Source of the DNA: Chamaesiphon minutus PCC 6605
GTDB lineage: Bacteria > Cyanobacteriota > Cyanobacteriia > Cyanobacteriales > Chamaesiphonaceae
Assembly: GCF_000317145.1 (NCBI RefSeq)
Contig: NC_019697.1
Coordinates: forward strand, 1,860,001 to 1,924,000
Direction of reading: 5' to 3'
DNA: 64,000 nucleotides
Shown here: piece by piece, positions 40,865-48,347 of the stretch
How the letters are laid out: each line of letters starts with the position of its first letter
Numbering within the stretch: position 1 is the first letter of the stretch
Translations under genes and position numbers: made by a program
The notes under the pieces: generated by a model
Seen by the model: only the letters and a program-made list of their open reading frames with translations
What the model was told of the DNA's origin: nothing
The model's database searches: none

Positions 40865-41218
40865 GTGACACGGATCGTAGAACCTAAACAAATTATCTTT
40901 TACGCAGATGCCGACGGAAACGAACCGTTTCAAGTCTGGCTCGACGCTCTGCGCGATACTCAAGGTAGGCGGCGAATTATCAAACGCCTGTTTCGAGTTC
41001 AGCAGGGTAACTATGGAGATGTCGAGCCAATCGGGGAGGGGTTGTCCGAATTACGTCTGTTCTTCGGCCCTGGATATCGGGTGTATTTCGGTGAAGATTC
41101 AGGCAACATTGTCATTATCCTGTGTGGTGGAGACAAAGATAGCCAAGACCGCGACATAGAAAATGCTAAAGCTTATTGGCAGGAGTACCAAACTAATGCG
41201 AAAACTGAGAACCCTTGA
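40865..41218 (+). CDS. RelE/HigB-family toxin
   Basis: A 117-residue protein with the type II RelE/HigB killer pattern: PFQVWLDALRDTQGRRRIIKRLFRVQQGNYGDVEPIGEGLSELRLFFGPGYRVYFGEDSGNIVIILCGGDKDSQDRDIENAKAYW. The GxRVYF and GGDKdsQ...DI..A motifs are typical of the addiction-module killer group (phage-derived Gp49/HigB). GTG start at 40865. The following antitoxin-like gene overlaps by 23 bases, so toxin comes first, as in HigBA. Confidence 0.8.
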   Translation: MTRIVEPKQIIFYADADGNEPFQVWLDALRDTQGRRRIIKRLFRVQQGNYGDVEPIGEGLSELRLFFGPGYRVYFGEDSGNIVIILCGGDKDSQDRDIENAKAYWQEYQTNAKTENP

Positions 41219-41522
41219 TGAAGTGACAGAAGGCTATTTCCGCAACCATCCTGAAGAAATCGATGATTATCTAACAGAAATTTTCCAAGACTTTGCCGAA
41301 GATAATGACACTGGAGTATTGCTTGCCTCATTGCGTGTCCTGGCTCGTGTGCGGGGTATTGGTGATATGGCGGCACAAATTGGGATGACCAGACAGGGAT
41401 TGCAAAAAGCCTTGTCTGATGATGGCAATCCACGACTTAGTAACGTCACATCAATCGTTAAAGCAATGGGTTATTGTTTGGTACCTCAAAAACTTACCCA
41501 GTCGCAACCCGCTCCACACTAA
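41196..41522 (+). CDS. HigA-like antitoxin (HTH)
   Basis: About 108 residues. The helical core contains LASLRVLARVRGIGDMAAQIGMTRQGLQKALSDDGNPRLSNVTSIVKAMGYCL, the helix-turn-helix pattern of the addiction-module antitoxin that pairs with HigB-type killers. The ATG at 41196 is preferred over an upstream GTG/TTG-type start at 41163. It overlaps the toxin gene, so the two are co-translated. Confidence 0.8.
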   Translation: MRKLRTLDEVTEGYFRNHPEEIDDYLTEIFQDFAEDNDTGVLLASLRVLARVRGIGDMAAQIGMTRQGLQKALSDDGNPRLSNVTSIVKAMGYCLVPQKLTQSQPAPH

Positions 41523-41588
41523 TTATAGTCCGTCTCAATCGATGCCTAATGCTCAATTGTCCCGATTTTAGTTCACTCTTAAATAAAG

Positions 41589-42617
41589 ATGGCGCGCGAC
41601 CTACCAGCAATTAAGATCGTTCGCACCACTCCCCCAAATCTCGTGGGTGCCTCTGCTGTAGATGAGCGGTTGACTGTCAAACCAGTTGCTCCAGGGGTCT
41701 GGGACGAGTTTCTCCAACTGCAAATTTCACCTGCTACCAGACGCTCGTATGCAGCGGCGTTGAAGGACTTTTTTGGGCGAGAGTTAGAAACTGAGGTGTC
41801 TGTAGGGGCGATCGAGTTGTTCTTACAACTCCCCGAACGGGAAGCAATCGGTCATGTCTTAAACTATCGCGGACAACTACTGACGGCGGGTTTAGCTGCG
41901 GCGACGGTGAATGCTCGGTTGGCGGCACTGCGCTCTTTTGTCGTCCATGCTTACAAGCGGAAACTGTGCAATTTTCGGTTGGATGATATTAAATCGGTGA
42001 AGGCGCAGAGCTATAAGGATACTAGGGGAATCTCGATCGACCAATTTCAGTTGTTAATCGATGGGATCGATCGATCCACTGTCATGGGTAAGCGCGATTA
42101 TGCGATGCTGCGGTTGCTCTGGGACAATGCTCTGAGGCGCGCTGAGGTGTGTGGACTCGATCGAGCTGATTTTCACCCTGGTGAAGCTCGGCTTTATCTC
42201 AAGGGGAAGGGGAGAATCGATAAAGAACCGATCGATCTGGCACCTGCTACGGTTGAAGCGATCTCTGATTGGTTGGCGAGTATGGGTGAGAGTAGAAGTC
42301 CGGCTTTATTTGTCTCTAGTCGAGATACACGGATAAGTGTCGATCGTCTCTATCAGATCGTCGGGGGATTGGCGGCAGCGGCGGGGATTACCTCCGGTAG
42401 GCAAGCCAACGAGCGGGTGGTGAGTCCGCACAAGATTCGACATTCTAGTATTACGGCATTACTAGATCTTAATGGTGGGGATGTGCGCTCGGCTCAGGCT
42501 CACAGTCGGCATAAGAATTTATCGACGCTGATTCGCTATGATGATGGGCGACAGCAATTGCAGGGTAAGGCTGCGAAGACACTGGCTGACGCGATTTCGG
42601 AGCGAGAGATGGATTAG
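41589..42617 (+). CDS. Tyrosine recombinase / integrase
   Basis: A 342-residue site-specific recombinase with an N-terminal SAM-like domain and a catalytic domain: LLWDNALRRAEVCGL (Arg), HKIRHSSITALLDL (HxxR) and HSRHKNLSTLIRYDD (His, Tyr). All catalytic residues are visible. It is XerC/D-like in size and stands alone, unlike the three Tn554-type recombinases, with which it shares no obvious sequence beyond the catalytic motifs. It could be responsible for island integration or plasmid dimer resolution. Confidence 0.82.
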   Translation: MARDLPAIKIVRTTPPNLVGASAVDERLTVKPVAPGVWDEFLQLQISPATRRSYAAALKDFFGRELETEVSVGAIELFLQLPEREAIGHVLNYRGQLLTAGLAAATVNARLAALRSFVVHAYKRKLCNFRLDDIKSVKAQSYKDTRGISIDQFQLLIDGIDRSTVMGKRDYAMLRLLWDNALRRAEVCGLDRADFHPGEARLYLKGKGRIDKEPIDLAPATVEAISDWLASMGESRSPALFVSSRDTRISVDRLYQIVGGLAAAAGITSGRQANERVVSPHKIRHSSITALLDLNGGDVRSAQAHSRHKNLSTLIRYDDGRQQLQGKAAKTLADAISEREMD

Positions 42618-42755: not shown

Positions 42756-43949
42756 TCAAAAAGCACTTTGGATATACTTTTCACTCGATGCTGCCTTCAC
42801 TTTTTGCACGGTAGCAGGCGATACCCCAACTTCTTTAGCAGTAGCTCGAATCGACAAACCTCGCGCTAAGGCATCCAGAATCTCAACAGACGACGGCTTG
42901 GCTAGAAAATCATCATCTGTTGTCATACTACCACTCGGTCTACCAACATGAGTGCCCCATTGTTTGGCTCGTGCCATGCCAACTTTAATAGCCGCTCGTC
43001 GCTGCTGCGATCGTTCTACTGCTTCAATTTCGCACTCGACCTGAGATGGTAATCTATTTAATAGATCGCGTTCGACGTTGGATATCTCCTTTGCTTCGAT
43101 CCGTCTGAGTTCGCGCAATACCGATTTACTCAGCTTTTCATCTAACTTAAAATATTCACTATGCGAACCGATGCGATAAAGATATCGTTCGTATTTATAA
43201 ATAAAGTATCTCTCCAAATTACCACGATGCAGCCAAGTACCTAATATTTCGATTGCTACTGTTTCAAAGTGACCTTTGAGATCTGCATTTATTTCGATCG
43301 TCCGCTCTGATACCGTGCGCCCAGTCACGCCAATTTTATAGAATTCTTCGCCATCTGCAATAATTTTTAAATAATAAAGATGGTTGGCTAATGCCGATCT
43401 AACTCGATCGCGATAAATTTTGAGATCGATGAGGACATCGGGATAATCGACCGATTCTTCCTCATAAGCCAATCGGACGCGCTCTTCAAGATCGCAAAGT
43501 TTGCCATACATTAGCGGCTCTTGGACTTGGGCAAATAAATTCATCGAGAGTTTACGACAAATAACTTTCCCTAATTTAGTTAGTTCCCACCCTCCATAAC
43601 TACCTTTGTGAGGATTGTAGACGATCGTGTCTTTGGCTTCGAGTGTAAATCTATATTTTGAATCTACACCTTTCTTCTCAAATTGAAGTAAGGCTGCATA
43701 TTCTCTGGGTGTTAAATGTAAATTAAATCTGTCAAATAAGGGAAGTTCGACATCTCTACCTGACGATACCGCTCGACAAGTTGTGTCAGTATGGGCGAAG
43801 TGGTGGGCTTTGATTTCACCCTTTTTGGAAGTTAAACCTCCTTGGCAATATGGGCATTTTAGATCGGTTTTACCTCGACGCACTCGATCGACAGGTACGA
43901 GGTTGCCATCTGGGTCGATGCCGTATTCTAGCCACTGCCACATTCTCAT
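42756..43949 (-). CDS. CoiA-like zinc domain, GIY-YIG-like (T5orf172/MUG113) domain and HTH fusion
   Basis: About 397 residues. Start ATG at 43949 (MRMWQW) is chosen over a TTG at 43976. N-terminus: CPYCQGGLTSKKGEIKAHHFAH, the Cys/His signature of CoiA-like competence proteins. Middle: YYLKIIADGEEFYKIGVTGRTVSERTIEINADLKGHFETVAIEIL, with a later HSEYFKLDE, the GIY-YIG-superfamily T5orf172 pattern. C-terminus: GRPSGSMTTDDDFLAKPSSVEILDALARGLSIRATAKEVGVSPATVQKVK, a resolvase-type HTH. This combination suggests a DNA-recognising nuclease of a mobile or defence element. It lies between the integrase and pAgo. Confidence 0.7.
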   Translation of the reverse strand: MRMWQWLEYGIDPDGNLVPVDRVRRGKTDLKCPYCQGGLTSKKGEIKAHHFAHTDTTCRAVSSGRDVELPLFDRFNLHLTPREYAALLQFEKKGVDSKYRFTLEAKDTIVYNPHKGSYGGWELTKLGKVICRKLSMNLFAQVQEPLMYGKLCDLEERVRLAYEEESVDYPDVLIDLKIYRDRVRSALANHLYYLKIIADGEEFYKIGVTGRTVSERTIEINADLKGHFETVAIEILGTWLHRGNLERYFIYKYERYLYRIGSHSEYFKLDEKLSKSVLRELRRIEAKEISNVERDLLNRLPSQVECEIEAVERSQQRRAAIKVGMARAKQWGTHVGRPSGSMTTDDDFLAKPSSVEILDALARGLSIRATAKEVGVSPATVQKVKAASSEKYIQSAF

Positions 43950-44028
43950 CTCTAGTTTCACCTGCCTTTCGAGCAATGTGCAAATGATTTATGTTCTTAT
44001 TTACTATTATCCTCCTCGCTGGCTTGAG

Positions 44029-44078: not shown

Positions 44079-46310
44079 TCACAACCAATGCTGGCGACGC
44101 ATTTCAGGCAGACAAACTCCTCTCAACTTCAAATCGGCAAGTCGATGTGCCCCAGCTAACATCGCTGGTAATTTTGGAGGATTTAGAGAACCGTAATGTA
44201 GCAATGTCAGCTTGAGATATGTCTCTAAAACATCATCGATCGATACTTGATGACCTTCAGGACGAATATTTACGCGCATTGGTTTTGGTACGCCGATTCT
44301 GGGAGCTACTTTCGTAGCCACTAAAATCGCTTCTCGATCGGATAATTTCAAAGCTATTCCTCGATCTGGAGCTTGAATTGGGTATGGTGCCCTACTAGAG
44401 ATGTTATACAGGCGCGGGCATCCAGATTTACAACATTCAATTAAGATGAACTTGGCTTTAATCGCTGCTGCCCAATCAGCTAAACATTGAGCCTCATTGC
44501 CACAAAACCTACCATCTCGAAAGATCGCCACCGTTTTACCCCTTAATTCCCCCGCAGGTAATAAAGACTCTAAAAAATGGCAAGGAATTTCCTCACCTTC
44601 AATCATGGCATCCTCAGATTTCGCTCGGAGGAATTCACCCTGCTTGCCATAAAAACAGACTCCCGCACAAGCACTCCTAGTCCCTGACAACTTGCGCTTG
44701 TTTCTCCGTCCGACATCCAATCCGACGAAGACATCAGCAATAGTTAATGGTTCGGCTAAAATAAACGGAATGTGCCCCAATTTACCCAAGACTCCTGGAA
44801 TCACCTGATTGAGCATAAATCTAGGTTCTACCTTTCGCAGTTTTTCTTCATAGACAAATTGGGTGGCGATACCTCTTTTAAGTAGCTTGCCATAGATCCG
44901 ATGGTACAGACTCCCACCATCGTCATCATCGCGGTTTCGATCGCTTTGAGGCAGAAATATAAATACTAAATCTGGAGTAATCATCAATAATTCCTCTAGC
45001 TTTTCATCCAGCTCCGCTCGTCCGCTAGGATTATCGAGATTCTCAATGTTCATTTTCGATTCATTAGGATTGAGTCTTAAGTATTTACACCAAAATTTAT
45101 CGAGATACTTTTCTACTTCTGACATGAATCGATCGCTCGATACGTTGGATGTAATCAGATCGACTTCGGCAATACGAATCGGTATTTCTGATGAGAATTC
45201 TTTGGAGCGACGATATATACCTCCTTTCATTAATCCATTAATAATGTCGTTATGACGATAAATCTGACCTTGCCCAAACAAAAGTTTCGTTTGTTCCAAT
45301 GGTTCTGCTAGTTGCCAAAACAAGGAATCATCTTCACGGTTGCTACCAACAATGGACTTCTTGATTTGGATTCCATAAGGTTTGAGACTTTGATTGGCTT
45401 CAGCTTTATAAGTATTTAACAGCTTTTGTCGCTCTGGATAGCCGATCTTAGTAGCTGCAATCAATTTATCCCAATCTAATTCTAGTTGGTCGGCTGTCTT
45501 AGCTGTAACATGCGGACGTAGAGCAGCTAAAGCATAGCAAAATTTATTTCCACGATTGCCAAATTGTACTGCTACTACTGGTTGTTCATTTGGGGCAATT
45601 CTTAATTTTTCTTTACTAATAGCACCAGTAGCTTTAGCAATTAAGTCATCACGATGTTCGGAGATAGTACCGACTATTTCCACTATGGTAGCTGTACTAT
45701 TATTATCTAAAGTTTGGACTTCAAGATTAATCAGGAGCTTGTGTAAATCTTGGCGATAGGGATGATTTTTTATAAAATCTGCTAGATCTTCTCTGGAAAT
45801 AATCGGACTGCGATTAGTAATAGTTAAAGCTGGCAGCTCTCGATTTTCAATCTGAATTATTTCATGACTGACTTCAGCCTGTCGGATGACTTTGGCATTT
45901 TTATCTTTGTATTCCTCTTTAGTACTAAACGGTCGTTCGACACTCAAAATTTCTCTGGTTAACAAAGCGATAACAATCGGCGTGAGTTTTATCTGTTTAA
46001 CTGGAGACAATTTGCCTAAACTTTCGATACTTAGATCTTGCTGGATGCTTTTCAGGGCACAATTCCACTCATCTAAACTAGGTATTTTCCCCTCGCTACC
46101 TGTGAGAGCATGAAAGATTTTTTCGTGCCAAATCACCACTACTTTTGGGAAATAGCGCGATAGCCGATAGCTGAGTTTTCTAGCAACTTGTAGATCGAGA
46201 TTTGGTGGTAAACAATAGCTAGCGAAATTGAGAGAGGCACTATATTCAATCTCGGAAACTTCAGCGATGAAGTATTGAGTATTCGTCGTCTGCTCAGTGG
46301 ATGCTGTCAT
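44079..46310 (-). CDS. Prokaryotic Argonaute (long type) with complete-looking PIWI catalytic site
   Basis: A 743-residue protein. The MID domain shows GIATQFVYEEKLRK, FMLNQVIPGVLGKLGHIPF, the 5'-guide binding pattern. PIWI: FVGLDVGRRN (Asp532), SEDAMIEGEE (Glu566 the likely finger residue), AIFRDGRFCGNE (Asp599), and LPAMLAGAHRLADL with His722 at the fourth site, giving DEDH. The spacing from Asp532 to Asp599 (67) is near that of active long pAgos. The N-terminal half should hold N and PAZ domains but is not diagnostic by eye. It overlaps the nuclease gene by 17 bases. Likely guide-directed DNA (or RNA) cleavage against invading DNA. Confidence 0.85.
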   Translation of the reverse strand: MTASTEQTTNTQYFIAEVSEIEYSASLNFASYCLPPNLDLQVARKLSYRLSRYFPKVVVIWHEKIFHALTGSEGKIPSLDEWNCALKSIQQDLSIESLGKLSPVKQIKLTPIVIALLTREILSVERPFSTKEEYKDKNAKVIRQAEVSHEIIQIENRELPALTITNRSPIISREDLADFIKNHPYRQDLHKLLINLEVQTLDNNSTATIVEIVGTISEHRDDLIAKATGAISKEKLRIAPNEQPVVAVQFGNRGNKFCYALAALRPHVTAKTADQLELDWDKLIAATKIGYPERQKLLNTYKAEANQSLKPYGIQIKKSIVGSNREDDSLFWQLAEPLEQTKLLFGQGQIYRHNDIINGLMKGGIYRRSKEFSSEIPIRIAEVDLITSNVSSDRFMSEVEKYLDKFWCKYLRLNPNESKMNIENLDNPSGRAELDEKLEELLMITPDLVFIFLPQSDRNRDDDDGGSLYHRIYGKLLKRGIATQFVYEEKLRKVEPRFMLNQVIPGVLGKLGHIPFILAEPLTIADVFVGLDVGRRNKRKLSGTRSACAGVCFYGKQGEFLRAKSEDAMIEGEEIPCHFLESLLPAGELRGKTVAIFRDGRFCGNEAQCLADWAAAIKAKFILIECCKSGCPRLYNISSRAPYPIQAPDRGIALKLSDREAILVATKVAPRIGVPKPMRVNIRPEGHQVSIDDVLETYLKLTLLHYGSLNPPKLPAMLAGAHRLADLKLRGVCLPEMRRQHWL

Positions 46311-47214
46311 GCTCTAGATGCTCTGTATAATCGCAAATCGGGGAAAAGGAACAGTGTTGGCATTGAGTGCCAGGATTGGGTCTAAAAATTAGGTTAAATG
46401 CCGATCTATTGTGGTGGTAATGATTTGAGTCATCCGCTAGCCGTTGGGCAATCTTGACAACTAGCATTTCCAATCCTTGGAGTCGGGCTGGACTCGCCGT
46501 AATGATGCTCGAACTCTGTTGCGACTCTAAATTGTAGAAAGATGCGACAGCGGGCTGTTCTGGGTACAGATATTTAGCTGCTAATAGATAGGTGTAAGCT
46601 TGGCGGCGATCGAATTTGGATGTTCCAGTTTTGAAGTCTAGGATATGGATCGTGCCATCTGGCTCGATATATACACAGTCCATCACTGCATAAAAATCAA
46701 ATTCCTTTCGTTGTAATTTGAGGGGTAATGGTTTGGGTAACTCTTCATCGCCTCGTTCTAATTGGAGAATTTGCTTGCCTTTAAGGATCGGTCGATCGTG
46801 GTATCGTTCCAGAATTCGAGTGACTCTTGCGGCGATCTCTGGCTCTAACTGCTGCACCTGAAGGAGATCGGCTACGAGCCTTGCGCCATCAGATCGATCG
46901 AGTAATTGGGGATCGGCATGAAATTCATACACTCCTCGTTGGGCGAGGTGTCCGATGGCTTGAGCGGTACTATCTGTAGCGATTAAAGCTTTAACGATCG
47001 GCTCTCGATTGCGTACTCGCCTAAATCCCCGCTGCATCGGACAATGAAAGGCTTCTAGATTGAAGGCTGGCTCGGAATCTGCCCAGAGTTTGTAGCTAAA
47101 ATACGGACGATATCTAGTTGGACTGAGCATTCTAACGGTGTGAGGAGGTTGAGTTAGGAATGAGTGCTGGTAATTTTCTAGCTCGGCTACACCAACGGTT
47201 CGGTTTGACCACAT
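46294..47214 (-). CDS. Cas4/RecB-like PD-(D/E)XK nuclease with Fe-S cysteines, coupled to pAgo
   Basis: A 306-residue nuclease. Motif II/III: FDFYAVMDCVYI with Asp179, then HILDFKTGTS with Asp193 and Lys195, and QAYTY at 205-209, the RecB QxxxY motif. One cysteine near the N-terminus (Cys58, FHCPM) and three at the C-terminus (Cys285, Cys288, Cys294 in CQHCSFSPIC) fit the Fe-S layout of Cas4/AddB. No CRISPR array or other cas gene is near. Its stop overlaps the pAgo start by 17 bases, so the two are made together. It could prepare guides or remove cleaved DNA ends for the Argonaute. Confidence 0.82.
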   Translation of the reverse strand: MWSNRTVGVAELENYQHSFLTQPPHTVRMLSPTRYRPYFSYKLWADSEPAFNLEAFHCPMQRGFRRVRNREPIVKALIATDSTAQAIGHLAQRGVYEFHADPQLLDRSDGARLVADLLQVQQLEPEIAARVTRILERYHDRPILKGKQILQLERGDEELPKPLPLKLQRKEFDFYAVMDCVYIEPDGTIHILDFKTGTSKFDRRQAYTYLLAAKYLYPEQPAVASFYNLESQQSSSIITASPARLQGLEMLVVKIAQRLADDSNHYHHNRSAFNLIFRPNPGTQCQHCSFSPICDYTEHLEHDSIH

Positions 47215-47227
47215 CTAGCGTGTTAAA

Positions 47228-47250
47228 TGGTTGATTTCTGAAATCAACCA
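47228..47250. promoter_or_regulatory. Operator palindrome in the pAgo/XRE divergent promoter
   Basis: TGGTTGATTTC and GAAATCAACCA surround one central T: a perfect 23-base dyad, 14 bases upstream of the nuclease start (47214) and about 80 bases before the XRE start (47329). A second, weaker dyad lies at 47272-47292. Both share the TTGA half-site word. Confidence 0.7.
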
Positions 47251-47271
47251 CCTCTGTAGAAAGATAGCATA

Positions 47272-47292
47272 TGTTGATTTTTTTCGTCAACA
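47272..47292. promoter_or_regulatory. Second operator-like dyad
   Basis: TGTTGA (47272-47277) and TCAACA (47287-47292) flank an AT-rich spacer. Its word TTGA matches the first dyad, so one XRE-type repressor could bind both and control both directions of transcription. Confidence 0.5.
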
Positions 47293-47328
47293 TCGATTAT
47301 CATTGAAGGTGTCTAAGTTGGAGCAACC

Positions 47329-47673
47329 GTGAGTCAGACATTCGGGAAGTGGATTAAAGATGCTCGTCGTAGCAAAGGCTATAGCCAGAGAGATCTAGCT
47401 GCTCTGGTGAAAGTTGACTATACCTACCTGTCGAAATTGGAAAACGATCGAGCGGAATATCCACCCAAAGACGATGTGATCCAAGCGTTGATCGAACATC
47501 TAGATTTGGATGTGGATCTGGCTACGCTCAGTTATTTAGCTGGACGGATTACACCAGAGGATTCAAAAGTAATTCAACAGTTGGCTAAAACCTATCAGGA
47601 TAAAATGCCTGTACTATTACGCAAGATGCAAGATCCAGAAGTGATGCGGCGGTTGTTGGAGAGTGATGGATGA
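47329..47673 (+). CDS. XRE-family transcriptional regulator
   Basis: A 114-residue protein. A helix-turn-helix occupies the first 60 residues (GKWIKDARRSKGYSQRDLAALVKVDYTYLSKLENDR), followed by a short helical tail. GTG start at 47329. It overlaps the ImmA/IrrE gene by 4 bases, a pairing common in repressor-protease switches. Divergent from the nuclease-pAgo operon across a 114-base region with two operator-like dyads. Confidence 0.82.
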   Translation: MSQTFGKWIKDARRSKGYSQRDLAALVKVDYTYLSKLENDRAEYPPKDDVIQALIEHLDLDVDLATLSYLAGRITPEDSKVIQQLAKTYQDKMPVLLRKMQDPEVMRRLLESDG

Positions 47674-48347
47674 CTTCAATTAAGCCTGCTAGATTTATTA
47701 ATAAGTCAGAGATTACTGCTATCGCCGATCGATTGTTGGTTGAGATGCGAGATGCTAATTGGACTCCTAAATGGCCACAATTAGCGGATTTAGCTGCTGA
47801 TTTTCTGGATTTGTCGATCGATTATGAGGACTTTGATGTTGGTGAGGATGGGATAATAGCTGCCAAGATTTATCCAACCAAGAAAGAAATATATTTCAAT
47901 AATGCTTTTCCAGCTATTCGAGATAATTATGGATTTTATCAATCTACGTTAGCTCATGAAATCGGTCATTGGCTGTTGCATATAGATCTGAATTTACCAG
48001 AGACTGTGAACGACGATCTCATCTCGACCGCCTTGCCTGGAGAGGTGTTTTTATGCCGGAGTTTGGATGAAAATAAAAATAAGGTGGTGAATCAAAGAAC
48101 TCCCGAAGATTGGCGGGAGTGGCAAGCTCAGTACTTTGCTAGTTGTTTGTTGATGCCACTGGATAAACTGGAAGAGGTACGGCGTGGACGTAATTTAACT
48201 AATCGACAGCATCTGGGCGCGATTGGGGATGAATTAGGTGTAACGATCTCAAATTTAATCAACCGTCTTCAGGATTTAGAGTATCTTGAGAAAGGTGGTA
48301 ATTCTAAGCAGCTTTATCCTGGTAAACGGTTGAGATTGTCAGAATGA
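47670..48347 (+). CDS. ImmA/IrrE-family metallopeptidase
   Basis: A 225-residue zinc peptidase: the HEIGHWLLH motif (HExxH) after GFYQSTLA, and a downstream WREWQAQYFASCLLMP helix with the third ligand region, as in ImmA/IrrE. A C-terminal wing (LTNRQHLGAIGDELGVTISNLINRLQDLEYLEK) looks like a DNA- or partner-binding part. ImmA cleaves its cognate XRE repressor to induce an element; IrrE acts on a DdrO repressor after DNA damage. Its partner is the XRE gene upstream (ATG overlap). Confidence 0.82.
   Translation: MTSIKPARFINKSEITAIADRLLVEMRDANWTPKWPQLADLAADFLDLSIDYEDFDVGEDGIIAAKIYPTKKEIYFNNAFPAIRDNYGFYQSTLAHEIGHWLLHIDLNLPETVNDDLISTALPGEVFLCRSLDENKNKVVNQRTPEDWREWQAQYFASCLLMPLDKLEEVRRGRNLTNRQHLGAIGDELGVTISNLINRLQDLEYLEKGGNSKQLYPGKRLRLSE

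Follow-up and report, generated by a model that had tools for sequence, protein, structure and literature searches.

We analyzed a 64,000-nucleotide stretch of the Chamaesiphon minutus PCC 6605 genome (NC_019697.1, positions 1,860,001 to 1,924,000; hereafter the window, in whose numbering positions are given), in which a prokaryotic Argonaute (pAgo) and a Cas4-like nuclease are encoded divergently from a putative repressor-protease pair. Two genes run leftward: a long pAgo of 743 aa (44079-46310, minus strand; Pfam Piwi, PADLOC pAgo_II) and, ahead of it, a Cas4-like PD-(D/E)XK nuclease (46294-47214, minus strand; Pfam PDDEXK_1, PADLOC Aga_Cas4-like_Nuc). Two run rightward: an XRE repressor of the CapH/DdrO-like type (47329-47673, plus strand; GTG start, 114 aa; Pfam HTH_3, PADLOC capH) and an M78 zinc peptidase of the ImmA/IrrE/CapP-like type (47670-48347, plus strand; 225 aa; Pfam Peptidase_M78, PADLOC capP). 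The four Pfam identities each exceed the family cut-offs, and the PADLOC bit scores are 1048 (pAgo_II), 409 (Aga_Cas4-like_Nuc), 40.7 (capH), and 60.5 (capP). An earlier note on this DNA had described this layout, and its coordinates hold: the pAgo and nuclease genes overlap by 17 bases, the XRE and peptidase genes by 4 bases, and 114 bases separate the nuclease open reading frame (ORF) at 47214 from the XRE ORF at 47329. In alignment, the homologous nucleases start at about residue 29 of the nuclease ORF; Met29 (47130) may therefore be its true start, which would give an intergenic space of about 200 bases.

The promoter region contains two dyads, both of which had been noted beforehand and were located in the sequence by a dedicated script (a default-setting repeat search missed both). 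Operator 1 is the perfect 23-base dyad TGGTTGATTTCTGAAATCAACCA (47228-47250; arms of 11, centre of 1) and sits immediately downstream of the promoter predicted for the nuclease. Operator 2 is the 23-base dyad ATGTTGATTTTTTTCGTCAACAT (47271-47293; arms of 7, gap of 9), whose half-sites carry the -35 elements of both divergent promoters, predicted as TTGATT-18-TATCAT for the XRE-peptidase genes (47274-47303, plus strand) and TTGACG-18-TATCTT for the nuclease-pAgo genes (47261-47290, minus strand). Because both -35 elements sit in these half-sites, one dimer on operator 2 should silence both promoters. With at most one mismatch allowed, two dyads were seen in the promoter region versus about 0.01 expected, and dyads recur in most homologous promoters; the window dyads are therefore not due to chance.

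We searched 386 cyanobacterial genomes and a genome collection with a pAgo alignment, which gave 84 loci that were <97% identical and had enough upstream sequence. The nuclease-pAgo loci recovered were all cyanobacterial, the closest being from a Chamaesiphon metagenome-assembled genome; a scan of the genome collection with the nuclease alone recovered no relatives (the pAgo alignment did recover loci). A search for the four-gene unit, proposed in the earlier note as a check, found the divergent XRE and M78 pair at 59 of the 84 non-redundant nuclease-pAgo loci, one of the two genes at 2, and neither at 23. Among the 386 genomes, the M78 family is present in 15 of the 19 with nuclease-pAgo versus 18 of the 367 without (Fisher p 9e-15). 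On the pAgo tree, presence of the pair changes 8 times, far below the 18 changes for shuffled labels, which argues that the pair is inherited, with repeated loss or gain. Operons without the pair, which the note had named as evidence that would speak against its proposal, do exist (23/84), but they mostly lack the dyad as well and so are no argument against the switch where it is present.

The dyads leave a clear footprint across these loci. Upstream of 59 loci with the pair (20.6 kb), GTTGA-N9-TCAAC with at most one mismatch occurs in 85 copies versus 0.64 expected from shuffles that preserved single-base composition only, and upstream of 23 loci without the pair (28 kb) in 5 copies versus 0.9. 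When the gap was scanned from 4 to 14, a strong excess appeared only at 8 (64 versus 0.9 expected) and 9 (82 versus 0.4); gap 13 showed a slight excess (13 versus 0.55). A dyad of gap 8 or 9 was found in 54/57 loci with the XRE and M78 pair and in 5/20 without it, and a typical locus has two of them, spaced by about 43 bp. The promoter elements are conserved as well. On the XRE side, the TATAAT-like -10 element matches at 5 or 6 of its 6 positions in 24 of 44 gap-9 loci versus about 3% for random flanks, an excess somewhat inflated by choosing the best site per locus; at the mirror position toward the nuclease, a TAnnnT element is conserved in the gap-9 loci. XRE linker length and a Y/F change in the recognition helix track the operator gap of 9 or 8, but not without exception (clearly so in L129 at least). 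Since clades are confounded here, the correlation is taken as consistent with XRE binding and nothing further. Locus anatomy, this footprint, and the conserved catalytic residues strongly suggest that XRE would bind the dyads, and the predicted repression through them is strongly supported.

The same footprint bears on two other explanations of the pair. XRE+COG2856 pairs are predicted to form toxin-antitoxin modules, and the XRE and M78 genes could be such a module, or an addiction pair, placed beside defence genes by chance; a weak match to the NCBIfam family spr1629 (repressor/antitoxin), HigA-like antitoxins among the XRE structural matches, and the naming of CapP as a toxin in PDB point that way. 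Yet the divergent placement is repeated, the operators contain the operon's own promoter elements, and the dyad is near absent where the pair is missing, and we regard this explanation as very improbable. The second explanation is that what the pair controls is not the pAgo operon but a mobile element with an adjacent integrase, in the manner of ImmR/ImmA in ICEBs1. A tyrosine recombinase is encoded at 41589-42617, and ImmRA modules are common on integrative and conjugative elements (ICEs; PMC10233336), but a related recombinase lies near only 1 of 20 relatives (L030), and outside the promoter region between nuclease and XRE the genome has almost no such dyads. With no conserved recombinase among these relatives to link the switch to mobile-element genes, we rejected ICE-type control; its probability appears close to nil. 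Exact dyads in the whole genome number eight, four of them in the two pAgo promoters and four elsewhere; of the latter, the one examined, on contig C3, falls within a phosphoketolase-like gene.

The two switch proteins resemble known repressor-protease pairs. XRE has an N-terminal helix-turn-helix (HTH) domain and a helical C-terminal region, and the HTH matches the structures of CapH (Z 10.8), ImmR (10.2), and DdrO (8.9), among many other HTH proteins. The peptidase contains HEIGH at residues 96-100 with a distal E150 and a C-terminal winged-helix-like part, with no GAF-like domain; the AHEIGH motif and E150 are conserved across aligned homologues. Its AlphaFold model (mean predicted local distance difference test score 88) gave as best structural match the CapP of a cyclic oligonucleotide-based antiphage signalling system (CBASS), at VIA Z 13.4 over 177 residues and Foldseek 1.4e-6, followed by PprI with single-stranded DNA (ssDNA; Z 11.0) and IrrE (Z 10.8), and the peptidase-family profile recovered CapP from PDB by sequence (E 5.8e-6). 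ImmR/ImmA and DdrO/IrrE were the analogies first suggested for this locus; the nearest relative is CapH/CapP.

CapH/CapP controllers have been described for CBASS and further defence operons (Lau 2022, as cited in PMC13373217), and CapP and PprI are activated by ssDNA (PMC10904395; PMC13373217). The likeness lies in an HTH repressor gene adjoining an M78 zinc peptidase gene at a defence-operon promoter, and in an M78 fold with HEXXH and a distal Glu. The Chamaesiphon unit differs in its target (pAgo and Cas4-like nuclease), its divergent orientation, its lack of the CapP C-terminal domain, and its operator GTTGA-N8/9-TCAAC, and ssDNA activation would carry over by analogy. The DdrO/IrrE (PprI) pair of Deinococcus also combines an XRE repressor and an M78 peptidase of related folds, the latter ssDNA-activated in PprI (PMC10904395), but its regulon for DNA damage is genome-wide, whereas the eight exact sites here form no dispersed DNA-repair regulon, control appears local, and the GAF-like domain is missing. 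ImmR/ImmA of ICEBs1 and TnSmu1 form a repressor and M78 protease switch too (PMC10233336), with the genes of a conjugative element as target.

Another explanation is a simple autoregulated limiter, in which XRE would act homeostatically like the C proteins of restriction-modification systems and the peptidase would answer a signal other than DNA damage or be constitutive. In its favour, XRE would cover its own promoter, its HTH also resembles C proteins, one locus (L087) retains XRE without a peptidase, and the trigger is predicted by analogy. On the other hand, the peptidase stands beside XRE in 59/61 loci that have either gene, its zinc ligands are intact, and its closest structural kin are ssDNA-activated; a limiter therefore seems rather unlikely to us.

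Both effectors carry the residues expected for activity. The pAgo tetrad is D532, E573, D599, and H722 (DEDH; most homologues have DEDD). The first three are kept in all of 21 aligned pAgos; at the fourth, this genome has H and most of the others have D. Because the catalytic D, E, D and D/H are retained, the pAgo is predicted to be a catalytically active slicer. Its relative among solved structures is 9iad_A (E 1.6e-198). The nuclease has the PD-(D/E)XK residues together with four Cas4-type cysteines; E157, D179, D193-x-K195, Q205xxxY209, and the cysteines (C58, C285, C288, and C294) are invariant in 16 sequences. Both proteins match, within one operon, the PADLOC profiles for a class II pAgo with a Cas4-like nuclease. 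The nuclease-pAgo pair itself is already known: Makarova 2009 (PMC2743648) noted a Microcystis pAgo, apparently active, together with a nuclease related to Cas4, and PDB 9iab, 9iac, and 9iad (9iab and 9iac being relatives of the nuclease) represent the same two effector proteins as here. The long-B pAgo nuclease system (BPAN; PMC10620215) likewise has a long pAgo and a PD-(D/E)XK nuclease in one operon, but its pAgo is inactive, the pAgo gene precedes the nuclease gene, and its bAgaN nuclease belongs to another family; BPAN was rejected here because the catalytic D, E, D and D/H are retained and the gene order is opposite.

From these observations, we consider it probable that XRE represses both promoters of the locus, and that DNA damage or ssDNA serves as the signal for the M78 peptidase to cleave XRE, whereby the effectors are induced. 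XRE dimers would bind the two GTTGA-N9-TCAAC operators, which lie about 43 bp from each other; occupancy of operator 2 would cover both -35 elements and, with operator 1 placed just past the nuclease promoter, XRE would shut off nuclease-pAgo as well as its own gene pair. Upon DNA damage or invasion, the peptidase, probably activated by ssDNA as CapP and PprI are, would cut XRE in its C-terminal region (predicted in the helices at about residues 89-103) and free both promoters, and the slicing pAgo and the Cas4-like nuclease would be induced and attack the invader. Cleavage of XRE is expected from the family (CapP-CapH, PprI-DdrO, and ImmA-ImmR) and from the pairing, ssDNA or DNA damage as the likely trigger is suggested by CapP and PprI, and a defence against plasmids or phages by the induced products would agree with pAgo biology.

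Several points weigh against this induction model. XRE binding, cleavage, and induction are all predicted. The loci behind the dyad counts are related and the shuffled expectations were simple ones, and phylogenetically independent contrasts of pair versus dyad were not numerous enough to reach significance (median sign-test p 0.125). At the 23 loci without the pair the operon works without the switch, which is not obligatory. The structural match of the peptidase ends near CapP residue 208, the CapP/IrrE C-terminal domain has no counterpart here, and sequence similarity to CapP is low, so the trigger may be different. In the second copy of the unit described below, the peptidase (L029 5678-6343, minus strand) reads HEIGY where the other aligned peptidases read HEIGH; it may be inactive and dependent on the chromosomal peptidase. 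Conservation, phylogenetic footprinting, and structure all give strong support to the four-gene switch unit at a shared operator-promoter, as conceived in the earlier note, whose proposed repressor cleavage and induction by DNA damage or invasion are plausible; the unit is a frequent and not an obligatory companion of the operon.

The data suggest that in many cyanobacteria a DNA-targeting Argonaute and nuclease are kept behind a conserved repressor-protease switch, normally off and induced on demand. Long pAgos have mostly been studied from forced expression, and how an active slicer with a nuclease avoids self-targeting is an open question. A conserved switch of this kind would answer it: the system would stay silent until invasion is signalled by DNA damage or ssDNA. 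Such a switch would also offer inducing conditions for pAgo in the native host and extend CapH/CapP-type control to pAgo immunity, and the operator motif is a handle for finding further regulon members. The earlier note had called an inducible pAgo of this type unfamiliar, and our literature search, limited to open-access papers, found no pAgo under a CapH/CapP- or ImmA-type switch. The available text of Ryazansky 2018 lists lambda-repressor-like proteins in pAgo operons with no peptidase partner mentioned, and in neither that text nor that of Makarova 2009 is the XRE/peptidase switch, present here, mentioned in connection with pAgo.

The C. minutus genome (6.8 Mb, three contigs) has a second complete copy of the unit on the plasmid-like contig C3, with pAgo 65% and XRE 88% identical to the window copy. 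At E 0.001, no XRE or M78 homologues were found elsewhere in the genome beyond the two pAgo loci. Special pressure on XRE to cross-regulate the chromosomal and C3 copies was considered and dropped, as XRE identity to the locus of another Chamaesiphon is 96% versus 88%. The same contig carries a third pAgo C-terminus fragment of 65 residues, 62% identical (G000:C3:249760-249954; L003).

About half of the strong M78 matches in the 386 genomes lie away from pAgo. These copies are mostly divergent from an unrelated operon with phrog_29668-like proteins and have the same dyad at gap 8; in the M78 tree, two label changes part the pAgo-linked copies from the others. Because the same XRE-M78 family and the gap-8 dyad also occur beside this operon, the switch is a cyanobacterial module that accompanies at least two operons. 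We give roughly even chances to the broader proposal of inducible Argonaute immunity, in which a guide-directed active pAgo and a Cas4-like nuclease would be turned on by ssDNA-triggered repressor cleavage, and the same family on the phrog_29668-like operon would make it a modular cyanobacterial DNA-damage switch beside LexA. The phrog_29668-like operon (L174-L193; for example, L189 7191-9334 and L177 7274-11089) consists of two paralogues of 325-370 aa matching phrog_29668, with several additional small proteins without Pfam families in some genomes.

Variants of the switch occur at individual pAgo loci. At 11 loci (L041, L090, L097, L098, L105, L110, L116, L118, L121, L130, and L131), a single fused ORF encodes both XRE and M78, in most cases followed by another, separate M78 gene or a remnant of one. 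Chlorogloeopsis fritschii PCC 6912 (L087 5711-6067) retains XRE next to nuclease-pAgo but lacks a peptidase gene at this locus, which may be naturally locked off. A Gloeocapsopsis locus (L031 5418-5632, same as L071) contains a broken XRE remnant and no peptidase, and its second dyad is nearly intact. In two Hormoscilla loci (L080 and L124), the stretch from the nuclease gene to the XRE gene holds 13 and 6 operator-like dyads in tandem. In the window, the gene adjoining pAgo (42756-43976, minus strand) has CoiA N-terminal, MUG113/T5orf172 (GIY-YIG type), and HTH matches and is not kept at other loci. At lower window positions (40865-42617, plus strand), a Gp49-like/HI1420-like toxin-antitoxin pair is followed by the tyrosine recombinase, which hints at a mobile or defence island.

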